Below are positions 16,563 to 35,941 of a stretch of 64,000 nt of DNA, piece after piece. The stretch is taken from contig JANWZD010000014.1 in NCBI GenBank assembly GCA_025054935.1, positions 1 through 64,000 of the forward strand. Direction: 5' to 3'. The notes beneath the pieces are model-generated. The model made no database searches. It had not been told where the DNA came from and worked only from the letters and a program-made list of their open reading frames with translations. The stretch is from Dehalococcoidia bacterium (GTDB lineage Bacteria > Chloroflexota > Dehalococcoidia > SpSt-223). The position numbers were made by a program, and so were the translations under genes. Numbering within the stretch: position 1 is the stretch's first letter; every line of letters begins with the position of its first letter.

Positions 16563-17531
16563 TTAGGACGGCGACGCCTGCCCTGCCTCTTCGAGCCGCC
16601 GCATCGCTGCCTCGTCGAGCGAAACGGTGAGCGCGCCGAGCAGTTCGGCAAGCTGCGCCGTCGAGGTCGCCGAGACGATGGGGGCGGTGATGGCAGGCCG
16701 GTGGAGAAGCCAGGCGATCGCCACCTGGGCCGGCGTCGCGCCGGTCATCGCCGCGACCGCATCGACCGCCTCCAGCACCGCGAAGCCCCGGTCGTTGAGA
16801 TAGCGGCGCTGGATGCCGGCCGCGCGCGGGGTGGGAGGGAGCTCCTGCCCGGGGCGGTACTTGCCTGAGAGAAAGCCGCTCGCCAGCGACGAGTAGGGGA
16901 TGACGCCGATCCCTTGGTCGAGGCAGAGCGGAAGCAGTTCGCGCTCGAACCCCTCGCGGTCGACGAGGTTGTAGAGCGGCTGGAGCGACTCGAAGCGTGC
17001 GTAGCCGTATTTGTCGCTCACCCACAGCGCCTTTGTCAGCCGCCACGCGACGTAGTTCGATGCCCCGATATAGCGCACCTTGCCTTGCGTGACGAGGTCG
17101 TCGAGGGCGCGAAGCGTCTCTTCGAGCGGCGTCTCCGGGGAGTCGAAATGGATCTGGTACAGGTCGATGTAGTCGGTTTGGAGGCGGCGCAGGCTCGCCT
17201 CGACTGCCGCCATCAGGTGCGCGCGCGAGGTGCCGCCCTCGTTCGGCCCCGGCCCCATCTGGCCGCCCGCTTTGGTCGCGATGATCACCTGATGGCGATT
17301 GCCACGCGCCTGCATCCACCGTCCGAGGATGGTTTCGGACTCGCCGCCCTTATTGCCCGGCGCCCAGCGCGAGTACGTGTCCGCCGTATCGATAAAATTG
17401 CCGCCCGCTTCAACGTAGGCGTCCAAGATCTGGAACGACGTCGGCTCATCAGCGGTCCACCCAAAGACATTGCCGCCAAGACAGATCGGGGCAACTTTCA
17501 AGCCGGTTCGGCCGAGCTTGCGGTACTGCAC
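16563..17531 (-). CDS. Aldo/keto reductase
   Basis: A 322-aa TIM-barrel NADPH oxidoreductase. MQYRKLGRTGLKVAPICLGG opens the protein. The catalytic Asp/Tyr lie in NFIDTADTYSRW, and the phosphate-binding and substrate-loop regions include IIATKAGGQMG, TDYIDLYQIHFD and IGASNYVAW. GTG 17531 is preferred because GGAGG lies 6 nt upstream; ATG 17537 would sit almost on that site. Members reduce aldehydes, ketones or sugars; the physiological substrate is unknown. Its TAA is 10 nt before the palindromic operator of the next gene on the same strand. Confidence 0.92.
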   Translation of the reverse strand: MQYRKLGRTGLKVAPICLGGNVFGWTADEPTSFQILDAYVEAGGNFIDTADTYSRWAPGNKGGESETILGRWMQARGNRHQVIIATKAGGQMGPGPNEGGTSRAHLMAAVEASLRRLQTDYIDLYQIHFDSPETPLEETLRALDDLVTQGKVRYIGASNYVAWRLTKALWVSDKYGYARFESLQPLYNLVDREGFERELLPLCLDQGIGVIPYSSLASGFLSGKYRPGQELPPTPRAAGIQRRYLNDRGFAVLEAVDAVAAMTGATPAQVAIAWLLHRPAITAPIVSATSTAQLAELLGALTVSLDEAAMRRLEEAGQASPS

Positions 17532-30430: not shown

Positions 30431-32281
30431 ATGAAGACCCTGCCCGCTCTCCTACTCGCGCTCCTCGCCGGAGTTGCCTTTCTCCACGGTGTCGCGGAAG
30501 CGCAGGCGCGCTCCGTGACCATGCCCCGCCGCGACGCCGAGGTGACGATCCTTCCGAACGGCGATGTGCAGTTCGTCGAGACCTGGGTCGTCCAGTTCAG
30601 CGGCGGGCCGTTTCAGCAGGCTTTCCGCAACATCTCCATGCGGCAAACCACCGGCATCACCGACGTCGCAATCAGTGAAGGCGAGACCGCCTACCGACAG
30701 ACCCTCGGGTCCGGGACACCGAACACCTACCGCGTCACCGCAGAGGGCGGGGAGACGCGCATCGAGTGGTACTTCTCGCCGACGACGAATGCGACGCGCA
30801 CTTGGACTGTGCGCTACACCGTGCGCGGCTCGCTCTATCTCTACCCAGAAGGCGACCAGTTCTACTGGAAGTTCATTGAGAGCGACCGGCAGTACACGAT
30901 CCAAGCGTCGCGCGTCCGGCTGACGCTTCCGAGCGAGGTCCGCCCCGACCAAATCCGCGCGACGACCTATACGAACGCCCGCGAGACGGGCGGAGCCCAG
31001 GTGAGAGATGGGCGGACTGTCGAATTCACTGGCGGGCCGTTCGGGCCGGGCGTGGAGTGGGAGCTGCGCGCGCAGTTTCCGTCTGGACTGGTCAACGCAA
31101 GCCGGGCGCCGTGGCAGGTCGAGCGCGATCGCGAGCCGTTCTACACCCTGTTTGGGCTGTTCTTTGCCGTTGTGATCGGGATCGCCGGCCCCGCCGGCGT
31201 CGTAACGCTGTGGTACCTGCGCGGCCGCGATGCGCGTCCGGGGCTTGTCGCTGAATTTCTCGCCAGCCCCCCGGATGATCTTCGTCCCGGCGTCGCCGGG
31301 GTGCTCCTCGATGAGCGCGCCGATCTGCAGGACATCATCGCGACGCTCGTCGACCTCGCCCGGCGCGGCTATCTTCAGATCATCGAGCGCGATGAGCGCG
31401 GCGCGGATCGATTCCGCTTCGTCCGGCGTGAGGGCGATCCAGCTGAACTGCAGCCGCATGAGCGGCTGTTGCTGGAAGCCGTCTTCGGCTCAAAGACGCA
31501 GACGGATCTCAGCGAACTGCGGAATAAGTTCTACCTGCAGATCCCCTCGCTCCAGCGGGCATTAATGCGTGCCGTCGTGGAGGCGGGCCTCTTTCCGCGC
31601 AGCCCTTCCACTACCCGAGCGATCTACGCGGCGCTCGGCGGCGCGGTGCTGCTAGCAGGACTCGCCGCGTTCGTGCTGGCGACGTCCTCCTCGTCGGCGC
31701 TCGTGGCGCGCGTTATCGGGTTCCCGAGCGTCCCCGTCATGCTGACGGGCCTGCTGCTGATCCTGTTCAGCCCGGCGATGCCGCGACGCACCGAGAAGGG
31801 CGCCCAGGCTGCCGCCAAGTGGCGCGCGTTCCGGCGCTATCTGGAGCACATCGACCGCTACACGAATGTTGCTGAAGCGAAGGACCAGTTCGAGCGCTAT
31901 CTCCCCTACGCGATTGCTTTCGGGGTGGAGCGGAGCTGGGTGGATCGATTCGCCCGGGTCGACACGCCGGCGCCGGTCTGGTACCTCCCAGAGCGGGTGT
32001 ACGAGACGGGCGGATGGGGCCGCTCTAGCCGTACGAGCGGCGACTGGAGAGGCACGGGGAGCAGCAGCGGCGACCGTGGAGGCCTGCCATCGCTCGATGA
32101 AGCCGCGGCGCGGTCGCTGGGCGGACTGAACGCGATGAGCGCCGGCTTTTTCTCGATGCTGAACTCTACTTCGTCGGTCTTCACGAGCGTGCCGCGATCG
32201 TCGGGAAGCGGCGGCGGCTGGTCTGGCGGCGGGGGCGGCGGCGGAGGCGGCGGGGGCGGCGGGTCGAGCGGCTTCCGCTAG
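30431..32281 (+). CDS. DUF2207-domain membrane protein with Gly-rich tail
   Basis: A 616-aa protein. ATG 30431 follows GGAGGGG. A signal peptide (LPALLLALLAGVAFLHGVAEA) leads into an extracytoplasmic beta-rich DUF2207 domain (about 35-220) containing FVETWVVQFSGGPFQQAFR and WYFSPTTNATRTWTVRYTV. A membrane helix (about 238-260) is followed by a winged-helix-like cytoplasmic part (DIIATLVDLARRGYLQI), two more helices (about 395-450) and a C-terminal low-complexity Gly/Ser stretch after about 590. DUF2207 proteins are widespread and of unknown function. The next gene is also a membrane protein with a winged-helix-like segment and may be related functionally. Confidence 0.85.
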   Translation: MKTLPALLLALLAGVAFLHGVAEAQARSVTMPRRDAEVTILPNGDVQFVETWVVQFSGGPFQQAFRNISMRQTTGITDVAISEGETAYRQTLGSGTPNTYRVTAEGGETRIEWYFSPTTNATRTWTVRYTVRGSLYLYPEGDQFYWKFIESDRQYTIQASRVRLTLPSEVRPDQIRATTYTNARETGGAQVRDGRTVEFTGGPFGPGVEWELRAQFPSGLVNASRAPWQVERDREPFYTLFGLFFAVVIGIAGPAGVVTLWYLRGRDARPGLVAEFLASPPDDLRPGVAGVLLDERADLQDIIATLVDLARRGYLQIIERDERGADRFRFVRREGDPAELQPHERLLLEAVFGSKTQTDLSELRNKFYLQIPSLQRALMRAVVEAGLFPRSPSTTRAIYAALGGAVLLAGLAAFVLATSSSSALVARVIGFPSVPVMLTGLLLILFSPAMPRRTEKGAQAAAKWRAFRRYLEHIDRYTNVAEAKDQFERYLPYAIAFGVERSWVDRFARVDTPAPVWYLPERVYETGGWGRSSRTSGDWRGTGSSSGDRGGLPSLDEAAARSLGGLNAMSAGFFSMLNSTSSVFTSVPRSSGSGGGWSGGGGGGGGGGGGGSSGFR

Positions 32282-32368
32282 CGTCGCCGCCCCGCCCGCG
32301 CAGCAGAGTGCTACGCTCTGTGGCGCCATGCATCTTTGCCCCGGCTGGGGCATATCGGAAGAGGGCGA

Positions 32369-32884
32369 ATGGGACGCGTGCTCGGCCTCATTGTGATCGC
32401 AGTCGGTGTTGGGATCTGCGCGGTCGTCTCACTGTTCATCGGCTCCGGCCTTTTGACCAACCAGCTGACGCTCGCGGGCGCGGTGCTCGGGATCGGGCTG
32501 TTCGGCGGCATGCCGCTTCTGCTGCTGAGCGGCATCGGCGCGTTCCTCTTTTTCCGCGGCCGCGCCGAAGAGAAAGAACTGGCCGAAATCCGGAAGAAGG
32601 AGCGGCTGCTTGGCCTGATCTCGGCGCAGGGGCAGGTGTCCCTCGGGTCGGCGATGATCGAACTGAAGATGACGCGCGACGAAGTGCAGAACGCGATCTA
32701 CGACCTCGTCAACCAAGGCCTGTTCGCCGGTTATATCGACTGGACAACGCAGACCTTCTACTCGAAAGATGCTGCCCAGGTCGGCAGCACGAAATGCCCG
32801 AACTGCGGCGGTGTCCGCGAGGTCGCCGGCAAGGGGATTGTCCGCTGTCCCTACTGCGGCGTGACGCTCTTCATCCCTGCCTGA
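32369..32884 (+). CDS. Membrane protein with winged-helix-like domain and zinc ribbon
   Basis: A 171-aa protein. ATG 32369 follows GGAAGAGGG. Two membrane helices (VLGLIVIAVGVGICAVVSLF; LGIGLFGGMPLLLLSGIGAF) precede a charged helix and a winged-helix/PCI-like segment (MTRDEVQNAIYDLVNQGLFA). A C-terminal zinc ribbon holds the four Cys in CPNCGG and CPYCGV. An extended -10 (TGC-TACGCT at 32309-32317) lies upstream. It is placed between the DUF2207 gene and the selenoprotein candidate, all rightward. Function unknown. Confidence 0.75.
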   Translation: MGRVLGLIVIAVGVGICAVVSLFIGSGLLTNQLTLAGAVLGIGLFGGMPLLLLSGIGAFLFFRGRAEEKELAEIRKKERLLGLISAQGQVSLGSAMIELKMTRDEVQNAIYDLVNQGLFAGYIDWTTQTFYSKDAAQVGSTKCPNCGGVREVAGKGIVRCPYCGVTLFIPA

Positions 32885-32959
32885 GCGCATCGGCGGAGAG
32901 AGGCGGACTACCGCGGAATGCGCTACGCTCCGCGTGATCCCGCCGCCCGAGGAGGCAGC

Positions 32960-33589
32960 ATGCACCGAGCGCCGCTGCCGGTCACCGTCTGGAGCGACTT
33001 CGTCTGACCGTGGTGCTTCATGGCGGTGTCCGGTCTGGACACCTTGGCCCGCGCCGAGCCGATCGTCGTCACGTGGAAAGCGTTCGAGCTGCGCCCGCCC
33101 GAAGCGCCGCCGCTGCCGCCGGAGGTCGTCGCGCAGTACCGCCAGCGCATCGCCGCCCAGAGCGAGCGGATGCGCCAGTACGCCCGCGCGGTCTTTGGCC
33201 TCGAGATGCGCCAGCCGGAACGCCCCGCATCCAGCCGTCTCGCTCACCAAGCCGCCAAATGGGCAGAAGCGCGCGGCGCGGGCGACTGCTACCGCCGCGC
33301 GCTCTTTGCTGCCTATTGGCAGGAGGGCCGCGACATCGGCGACCTTTCCGTCCTGACGGCGCTCGCGGCCGACTGCGGGCTGGATGCTGCAGCGCTGCAG
33401 GCGGACCTCGCTGCCGGCCGCTTTGTCGAGGACGTGCAGGCCGACAGCGCCGAAGCGCACGCGGCCGGCATCTCCGGCGTTCCCGCGTTTGTCTTCGCGG
33501 GCAAGTACCTCGTCACGGGCGCGCAGCCGCCCGAGACGCTGCGGCGCATCGCTGCGCTCGTCCGCGAACAGCTCGCGGCTGAGGGCTGA
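32960..33589 (+). CDS. Candidate selenoprotein: DsbA/FrnE-family oxidoreductase with UPWC active site
   Basis: From ATG 32960 (GGAGG at 4-nt spacing) the frame reads PVTVWSDFV, then TGA at codon 16 (33005-33007), then PWCFMAVSGLDTL and on to 33589 without another stop (209 aa). In FrnE-type DsbA proteins this site is the CPWC redox motif, so the TGA replaces exactly the first, nucleophilic Cys. The rest is a complete family member: VVTWKAFELRP after the active site, a helical insertion, and the cis-Pro loop GISGVPAFVFAGKYLVTG. A hairpin meeting bacterial SECIS rules follows the TGA. Selenocysteine insertion is inferred; the alternative is a nonsense mutation of TGC/TGT. Translation starting after the TGA (near 33020) would lack the first strand and the active site. 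Confidence 0.82.
33005..33043 (+). promoter_or_regulatory. UGA codon and SECIS-like hairpin
   Basis: The UGA is at 33005-33007. A perfect 7-bp stem, GGTGTCC (33025-33031) and GGACACC (33037-33043), closes a 5-nt loop GGTCT (33032-33036). The loop begins with G and contains GGUC, like the E. coli fdhF SECIS apex. The gap from UGA to the loop is 24 nt, within the 16-37 nt expected. A lower GGC/GCC pairing is possible across a 3-nt bulge. No bulged U equivalent to that of fdhF is evident in the stem. Confidence 0.75.
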
Positions 33590-33706
33590 GCAGCCTCCGC
33601 AGCACGCTACACCTTCGAGAGCGACGGCGTCCAACTGGCTCTCGCCCAGTAGGCGATCGGCAGCGCGATCTGGTACATTTGTTCTATCTTATCGGCGAGG
33701 CGATCG

Positions 33707-35083
33707 ATGGCGAAGACACGCACGCGTACTGTCTTCTGCTGCCAGCAATGCGGCGGCGAGCAGTCAAAATGGCTCGGGCGCTGCCCCGAATGCGGCACGT
33801 GGAACAGCCTTGTTGAGATGCAGGTCGAGCGGAGCGCCCCGGGAGCTGTCACCGCCTCGCTGCCGAAAGCGGAGCCGCAATCGCTGCCGACGATCACCGC
33901 CGACCGCGTCGAGCGGATCACCGTCGCCTACGAGGAATTCAACCGGGTGCTCGGCGGCGGCATCGTGCCGGGGTCGCTCATTCTGATCGGCGGGGAGCCG
34001 GGCGTCGGCAAGAGCACCCTGCTCGCTCAGATCTCCGGCGCGCTCGTCCGAACGATCGGGACTGTGCTCTATATCTCCGGCGAGGAGTCGGTGCAGCAGA
34101 TCAAGCTGCGGGCCGACCGCCTCGGCATCAACGACGCCGGTCTCTATCTCCTCGCGGAAACGTCGCTCGACAACGCGATGGCGGCGATGGAGCGCCTGCA
34201 GCCCCGCGCGGTCGTTGTCGATTCGATCCAGACAATGTACCTCGACGACCTCGAATCGGCGGCAGGGTCGGTCAGCCAAGTGCGCGAGTGCGCTGTCCGC
34301 CTGCAGCGCTGGGCGAAGGCGCGGCATGTCCCCATCTTCCTTGTCGGCCACGTCACCAAAGAGGGCGCGATCGCGGGGCCGCGCGTGCTTGAGCACATCG
34401 TCGACTGCGTGCTCTACCTCGAGGGCGAGCGGTTCCAAAGCTATCGGCTGCTCCGCAGCACCAAAAACCGGTTCGGCTCCACCTACGAGGTGGGGGTCTT
34501 CGAGATGCGGGGCGACGGCCTGGTCGAGGTGCACAACCCTTCTGCTGCCTTCCTCGCCGAGCGCTCCGCCGCCGCGACCGGTTCGGCGGTGACCGTGACG
34601 ATGGAAGGCACCCGCCCCATCCTTGTCGAGATCCAAGCCCTTACCAGCCCAAGCCCCTCCAGCCTCACCCGCCGCACCGCCAACGGCATCGACCCGAACC
34701 GGCTGCACCTGCTGACCGCCGTGCTCACTAAGCGCGTCGGGCTGAACCTGAGCGCGCAGGATGTCTTCGTCAACGTCGTCGGCGGACTGAAGATCGGCGA
34801 ACCGGCGGCCGACCTCGCCGTCGCGCTTGCCATCGCCTCGTCGTATCGCGACCTCCCGCTCGACCATGAAACGGTCTACCTCGGCGAAGTCGGCCTCGGC
34901 GGCGAACTGCGTTCCACCGGCCAGCTCGAGCGGCGGCTGCTCGAAGCGGCGAAGCTCGGCTTCAACCAAGCCCTCATTCCCGCCGCCGTCAAGCGCGACC
35001 GGATTAAGGTCGACGGGATGCGCCTGATCCCGGTGCCTGACCTTGCCTCGGCGATCGCGGTGTTTGACCCGCTCCCGTTTTGA
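33707..35083 (+). CDS. radA: DNA repair protein RadA
   Basis: A 458-aa cytosolic RecA-like ATPase for branch migration in recombination. The N-terminal zinc finger has CQQCGG and CPECG. Walker A is GGEPGVGKSTLL, the RadA-specific motif is KNRFG (STKNRFGSTYEVGVF), and the C-terminal Lon-like domain includes DVFVNVVGGLKIGEPAADLA. The length matches the family. In many bacteria radA neighbours disA, yacL, ispD and ispF; here ispD-ispF and a YacL-like remnant lie 1.3-3 kb away. Confidence 0.97.
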   Translation: MAKTRTRTVFCCQQCGGEQSKWLGRCPECGTWNSLVEMQVERSAPGAVTASLPKAEPQSLPTITADRVERITVAYEEFNRVLGGGIVPGSLILIGGEPGVGKSTLLAQISGALVRTIGTVLYISGEESVQQIKLRADRLGINDAGLYLLAETSLDNAMAAMERLQPRAVVVDSIQTMYLDDLESAAGSVSQVRECAVRLQRWAKARHVPIFLVGHVTKEGAIAGPRVLEHIVDCVLYLEGERFQSYRLLRSTKNRFGSTYEVGVFEMRGDGLVEVHNPSAAFLAERSAAATGSAVTVTMEGTRPILVEIQALTSPSPSSLTRRTANGIDPNRLHLLTAVLTKRVGLNLSAQDVFVNVVGGLKIGEPAADLAVALAIASSYRDLPLDHETVYLGEVGLGGELRSTGQLERRLLEAAKLGFNQALIPAAVKRDRIKVDGMRLIPVPDLASAIAVFDPLPF

Positions 35084-35167
35084 GCGGCGGACCACCGCGT
35101 CCCTCGACCTCGCCTCGAGGATCGGGCGGTTCGCCGCCTCGAGTACGATCCGCCAGCAGGAGGACCG

Positions 35168-35941
35168 ATGCGCCGCGGCTACACCACCACCTCCCACGGC
35201 CAACTTCACTTCCGCGAGGCAGGCACAGGCGAGCCGCTTGTCCTTCTTCACCACTCGACCCGATCGTCGGATGTCTGGCGCGAGATTGCGCCGTGTCTCG
35301 CGGCGCGGTTTCGCGTTCTCGCGCTCGACACGCCGGGTTTCGGCAGCTCGCCGCCGCCCGCCGCGCCGCCCGGGCTCGCCGGCTACACGCAGGCGTTTCT
35401 TGAGGCGCTTGACTCCCTTGGGGTCGACCGCTTCGCCCTGTTCGGCTTTCTGACGGGTGCGGCGCTCGCCCTCGAACTCGCGGCGCGCGCGCCGAGCCGG
35501 GTGACCAAGCTGATCCTCGGCGCCTGCCCGGTGATCGACGACCGCGAGGCATGGCTCCGCAGCGCCCGGATCACCCCCCTGCAGCCGGACGGCAGCCATC
35601 TGACAGCAATCTGGACTAACTACGCTGCCGGCGCCTACCGCGGCTGGGGAACGCTTGAGCAGATGCAGCGCGCAACCATCGACAGCGCCGCCGCCGGGCC
35701 CGTCCACGCCCACTTCGCCCATCTAGCGGTCGCCGAACTGGATGTCAAGGCGCGCATCCCGCTGGTCGCCGCGCCGACGCTGCTAGTGTATGGGACGCGA
35801 GGACCGTTCGCAGAGCGGCAAGCCGAGATCGCCCCGCTCTTCCGCGCTGCTGAGCGCGTTGCGATTGAGAGCGGCCCGCTCATCATGCAGGAGCGTCCGG
35901 ATGTGCTCTGCCGCATCGTGACCGACTTTCTCTCGCGCTAG
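35168..35941 (+). CDS. Alpha/beta-hydrolase fold protein lacking the Ser nucleophile
   Basis: A 257-aa protein. ATG 35168 follows CAGGAGGACCG. The fold is clear: LHFREAGTGEPLVLLHHSTR (oxyanion strand-loop), RVLALDTPGFGSS, and a nucleophile elbow that reads FALFGFLTGAALALEL, i.e. G-F-L-T-G where G-x-S-x-G is normal. The late His/Asp region (LLVYGTRGPFAE; SGPLIMQERPD) also lacks a clear catalytic His. It is therefore unlikely to be a classical Ser hydrolase. It is related to the 62564 protein, whose elbow reads GHHTG. It could be a C-C hydrolase/lyase-like or non-catalytic member. Confidence 0.8.
   Translation: MRRGYTTTSHGQLHFREAGTGEPLVLLHHSTRSSDVWREIAPCLAARFRVLALDTPGFGSSPPPAAPPGLAGYTQAFLEALDSLGVDRFALFGFLTGAALALELAARAPSRVTKLILGACPVIDDREAWLRSARITPLQPDGSHLTAIWTNYAAGAYRGWGTLEQMQRATIDSAAAGPVHAHFAHLAVAELDVKARIPLVAAPTLLVYGTRGPFAERQAEIAPLFRAAERVAIESGPLIMQERPDVLCRIVTDFLSR

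Follow-up and report, generated by a model that had tools for sequence, protein, structure and literature searches.

The window analysed here—the first 64,000 nucleotides of contig JANWZD010000014.1 from a Dehalococcoidia bacterium—carries on its forward strand a gene for a FrnE-like protein of the DsbA fold, with an in-frame UGA that we read as selenocysteine (Sec) and a hairpin shortly downstream (Table 1). A likely ribosome-binding site precedes the ATG, the same-genus orthologue L128 having GAGGAGGGCGGC ahead of its own, and the gene closes with an ordinary UGA stop at 33587–33589. With the internal UGA read as Sec, the predicted protein begins MHRAPLPVTVWSDFVUPWCFMAVSGLDTL and has a CPWC-type active site, UPWC, at residues 16–19, in which Sec comes first. 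The DSBA domain PF01323 matches residues 8–196 (E 1.9e-34) and among solved structures the best sequence relative is FrnE of Deinococcus (5cnw; E 4.5e-35, residues 6–196); by these sequence matches the protein has a DsbA thioredoxin-like domain with a CPxC-type active site. No NCBIfam model spans the 209-residue protein, the best (NF041057) covering only residues 92–197 with a score far under its cut-off, and no signal peptide was evident. A Gly-Val-Pro triplet is what we take, from general knowledge of DsbA, FrnE and the thioredoxin fold, to be the cis-proline loop; a regular expression for this motif matched 49 of 80 Sec genes and, as the pattern is too narrow, was left unused.

Ordinary gene callers, taking the UGA as a stop, would report a truncated protein from 33020 that lacks the active site. 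The gene order from 30431 to 35941 (a membrane protein with a Gly-rich tail, a zinc-ribbon protein, the Sec-FrnE protein, a RadA-like protein and an alpha/beta hydrolase) is shared with a related genome, KatS3mg060 (L128). On the minus strand, a 401-residue open frame (window 32429–33634) spans the whole selenoprotein gene and is probably a by-product of the high GC content.

Table 1: Features of the selenoprotein gene in the window, and the selD gene of the same genome.
Feature	Position	Strand	Basis or remark
AGGAGG, likely ribosome-binding site, 4 nt 5′ of the ATG	32950..32955	+	Sequence
FrnE-like DsbA-fold selenoprotein gene, 209 aa with UGA as Sec	32960..33589	+	Translation, PF01323, FrnE match
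In-frame UGA, predicted codon of Sec 16, first position of UPWC	33005..33007	+	Sequence, translation; UGA at the equivalent codon in 80/107 homologues
Spacer between UGA and hairpin, 17 nt, coding for PWCFM and part of A	33008..33024	+	Sequence
Putative SECIS stem, 5′ arm, GGUGUCC	33025..33031	+	Sequence, RNAfold, covariation
Putative SECIS apical loop, GGUCU	33032..33036	+	RNAfold; apex fits N1-G-[G/U]-N-N2 of the published model (PMC13188914)
Putative SECIS stem, 3′ arm, GGACACC	33037..33043	+	Sequence, RNAfold, covariation
Gly-Val-Pro, likely cis-proline loop facing the active site	33476..33484	+	Translation; role presumed
selD with in-frame UGA (L137)	G000:C15:53052-53978	−	Own SECIS-like hairpin with GGU apex

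Fold of the hairpin and its chance expectation

An earlier, sequence-only reading of this DNA had described a perfect 7-bp stem (GGTGTCC/GGACACC) with a GGTCT loop, and this is what lies at 33025–33043: seven uninterrupted Watson–Crick pairs, with exactly the same hairpin recovered by RNAfold within the minimum free energy (MFE) structure of 33005–33060. The distance given there, 24 nt after the UGA, is correct for the start of the loop and not for the stem, which starts after 17 nt. A G-U wobble between the two ends of the loop is possible and would reduce it to the triloop GUC.

The published model of bacterial SECIS elements describes an apical loop of 3–9 nt on an upper stem of 4–16 bp (PMC13188914, Fig. 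2A), with a G within the first two positions of the loop, most often a G that precedes G or U, a distance of 16–37 nt from UGA to apical loop and an MFE of −7.5 kcal/mol or lower (PMC13188914). In the window, the loop is 5 nt long (3 with the G-U pair) and the stem 7 bp (8 with the G-U pair); the loop, GGUCU, has its G early and begins 24 nt from the UGA, and the region from +18 to +42 folds at −12.7 kcal/mol. The stem at 33025–33043 contains no bulged U of the E. coli type. That no such U was evident had been remarked in the sequence-only reading, as a possible sign of a lineage-specific SECIS, and stands for this gene; the general model, however, makes no bulged-U requirement, and many bacterial elements are unlike those of E. 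coli (PMC13188914).

Of the 1348 UGA triplets on the two strands of the window, 14 (1.0%) precede a hairpin that has seven or more Watson–Crick pairs and agrees with the loop and spacing rules of the model, so that such a hairpin is uncommon yet not rare after a UGA and evidence beyond the fold is needed. Plain dinucleotide shuffles of 33005–33060 (56 nt) gave z −1.2, with 27 of 200 shuffles as good; this result is not significant and is not counted as support. An Rfam scan of the window at gathering scores returned no SECIS family match, only a tRNA. Scanning the window for other readthrough genes with a hairpin produced one candidate, an open frame at 16866, which was judged unconvincing. 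We make no claim for a second predicted hairpin, located after the UGA and ahead of the putative SECIS, as one of its pairs is lost in the same-genus orthologue.

Sec and Cys homologues across the phylum

Of 400 genomes of the phylum that were searched, 115 gave a match with an E-value no higher than 1e-20, and in most of these a single in-frame UGA was present. The active site of 107 genes reads UP[WFY]C in 80 and CP[WFY]C in 27, a set of some 80 Sec and 27 Cys homologues that amounts to a natural experiment on the co-evolution of the SECIS with Sec/Cys exchange. The best stem is at least 7 bp long in 67/80 Sec genes versus 4/27 Cys genes. Counting offsets from the U of the UGA as 0, the stem is centred at +25 in 56 of the 80 Sec genes and at +29, the register of the window, in eight; stem centres in the Cys genes are scattered.

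In the window, positions 20–26 pair with 32–38. All ten Sec genes that share this register form pairs 23/35, 24/34, 25/33, 26/32 and 27/31, the last being A-U or G-U throughout, while the lower three pairs do not persist in every member (per position, 3/10 cells paired in the class). Pair 23/35 occurs as G-C in four of the ten, as C-G in four and as U-A in two. Two compensatory double changes are seen in L020, whose protein is 41% identical: G-C to C-G at 20/38 and U-A to A-U at 22/36. The sole change in the 19-nt hairpin of the same-genus orthologue turns a U-A pair into U-G. In L018, a close homologue, only the upper five pairs are uninterrupted. Of the four pairs from 23/35 to 26/32, none is formed in the six closest Cys homologues (46–49% identical).

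To assess selection on the RNA, the synonymous codons of each gene were permuted, leaving its protein and codon usage unchanged, and the stretch past the UGA was folded. For the window gene, 5000 such permutations gave a mean of −5.7 kcal/mol over +18 to +42 against the −12.7 kcal/mol of the real sequence (z −4.2, p 0.0006). The mean z of the Sec genes was −2.38 in the window's class (n = 10) and −2.21 in the others (n = 70); Cys homologues had no excess folding, with +0.82 for the six closest (n = 6) and −0.28 for the others (n = 21). The Mann–Whitney P for Sec versus Cys folding z was 7e-13, a value that is indicative only, because related genes are not independent. The folding regions for the two registers were picked after the hairpins had been seen; two further measures are independent of that choice. 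A 24-nt window slid along all genes found excess folding in Sec genes only at starts 9–18 nt past the U of the UGA, with values near zero elsewhere in these genes and no excess in Cys genes, and an earlier 36-nt window, also applied to all genes, gave a weaker difference in the same direction (mean z −1.07 for Sec and −0.34 for Cys genes, P 2e-4). L018, though among the closest homologues, is no outlier under codon permutation (p 0.31).

As an RNA structure, the hairpin is therefore kept in Sec genes and missing in Cys genes. The sequence-only reading had named two outcomes that would speak against it—Cys orthologues keeping the same hairpin, and a stem without covariation—and neither occurred: the nearest Cys homologues lack both the pairs and the excess folding, and the stem varies at pair 23/35, in the double changes of L020 and in the U-A to U-G change. 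These comparisons bear directly on the idea that the hairpin is kept only through conservation of the encoded AVSGLDT. It does lie within a conserved stretch directly past the active site, but it remains an outlier when the protein is held fixed, and genes with quite different residues achieve the pairing through compensating bases, whereas the nearest Cys homologues do not; we give this explanation next to no credence.

The same data weigh on a plainer alternative, in which the UGA is a true stop, owing to sequencing error or in a pseudogene, translation starts at the ATG at 33020 without the active site, and codon choice has produced the hairpin by chance. Mechanical calling of open reading frames does yield a 189-residue frame from that internal ATG, past the active site, and the background of about 1% of UGAs preceding a comparable hairpin in this GC-rich window would allow such an accident. 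Against this, the orthologue in a separate assembly from the same genus (L107/L128, 86% identical) retains both the UGA and the hairpin, 80 homologues carry UGA at the catalytic codon, excess folding is confined to Sec genes and AGGAGG stands ahead of the upstream ATG. A true stop is very improbable.

One genome family (L019, L021–L025) has retained tRNA-Sec, has Cys in the FrnE-like protein and lacks the hairpin; as read from these sequences, it is a case of natural Sec/Cys exchange. The genomes of the six closest Cys homologues all keep tRNA-Sec, and G034, the one among them whose selD was examined, has an in-frame UGA in that gene; absence of the hairpin thus goes with Cys in the protein and not with loss of the machinery. 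Across the phylum, tRNA-Sec was found in 41/42 sampled UGA-form genomes (the exception being a 91%-complete draft) versus 33/38 Cys-form genomes, and does not separate the two forms because most sampled genomes have it.

Selenocysteine machinery and a hairpin in selD

The genome that contains the window has a complete Sec-decoding set: a tRNA-Sec with anticodon TCA (68 bits), SelA (559 bits), SelB (scoring above its curated cut-off and including the C-terminal part) and SelD (397 bits). No additional SECIS came from a formate dehydrogenase alpha-like gene of this genome, whose reading frame is free of internal stops.

Its selD itself has an in-frame UGA, in the context SHGAGUACK, as did SelD in 25 of 26 genomes examined, with one UGA each. 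This UGA is followed by a SECIS-like hairpin, GGCGCA-GGUGC-UGCGCC, which is conserved in the two other species of the genus and recurs with paired changes in more distant genomes (GGCUCA-GGUCU-UGAGCC in G017 and L142). The two hairpins of this genome are alike in their GGU apex and differ in spacing, the loop starting 32 nt from the UGA in selD and 24 nt in the window; with GGUCU in one and GGUGC in the other, both genes share the apex N1-G-U-N-N2, in which N1 and N2 can pair, in agreement with the published model of bacterial elements (PMC13188914).

Stem-loops downstream of a stop codon can stimulate readthrough in some systems. The hairpin might accordingly be a generic recoding stimulator with no SelB site, with a near-cognate tRNA reading through the UGA or the codon being translated as Cys or Trp. 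We consider this extremely improbable: the genome has the whole Sec machinery and a selD with its own in-frame UGA and GGU-apex hairpin, UGA replaces Cys precisely at the redox residue, and the selenoprotein gene itself uses UGA as its ordinary stop.

Proposed decoding and relation to known elements and proteins

Recognition of the hairpin as a SECIS, as first proposed from the sequence alone, is supported by genomic evidence that we regard as established: RNA selection confined to Sec genes, covariation in the stem, a UGA at the catalytic codon and complete Sec machinery. The hairpin is very probably a bacterial SECIS through which SelB would insert Sec at the UGA. In the proposed mechanism, the hairpin folds in the mRNA 17 nt downstream of the UGA; SelB loaded with Sec-tRNA-Sec would bind the GGU apex and, when the ribosome reaches the UGA, deliver Sec at residue 16. 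The product is predicted to be a FrnE-like thiol/selenol oxidoreductase of the cytosol with Sec-Pro-Trp-Cys as its active site, and we would assign it a redox role.

The SECIS of E. coli fdhF has GGUCU at its apex, and E. coli SelB contacts a bulged U in the SECIS stem. The element in the window shares with that of fdhF the GGUCU apex and short stem, a small loop in which G comes early, and a position within the coding region; it differs in that its apex is about 6 nt farther from the UGA and its stem runs uninterrupted, without a bulged U. A class of SECIS without the bulged U of E. coli would make a test case for recognition by SelB. Separately, the predicted stem of L018 (G088) has single unpaired U residues on its 5′ arm that resemble the E. 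coli bulged U.

DsbA-like UxxC selenoproteins are a known kind, on record since 2005, to which the window gene adds a member. The type (COG2761) was originally reported from the Sargasso Sea (PMC1088965), was found again in GOS data as DsbA 1 (PMC2398784) and appears in PMC13188914 under the name ‘DsbA-like protein form 1’. Matched by these descriptions, the window protein shares with it the Pfam domain (PF01323), a UxxC site with Sec first and a SECIS 3′ of the UGA, and differs in its host, a member of the Chloroflexota, class Dehalococcoidia. Compared with FrnE of Deinococcus radiodurans (5cnw), it is shorter (209 against a chain of 260 aa), and the first Cys of the active site is replaced by Sec. 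Neither Chloroflexi nor Chloroflexota was found as a term in PMC13188914, so the abundance of the family in this phylum may be unrecorded so far, our check of the literature being incomplete. More tentatively, the genes described here could represent a phylum-wide, largely unannotated subfamily of FrnE-like selenoproteins in Chloroflexota, with a SECIS that has no bulged U and sits in one of two fixed registers, centred at +25 or +29, some lineages of which have switched between Sec and Cys with loss or gain of the hairpin.

The protein L084 (G348) is nearer to FrnE / HCCA isomerase in its N-terminus, MKVEIWSDIVUPWCYIGKRRFE; it too has UGA at the first active-site Cys, and its best hairpin lies further downstream.
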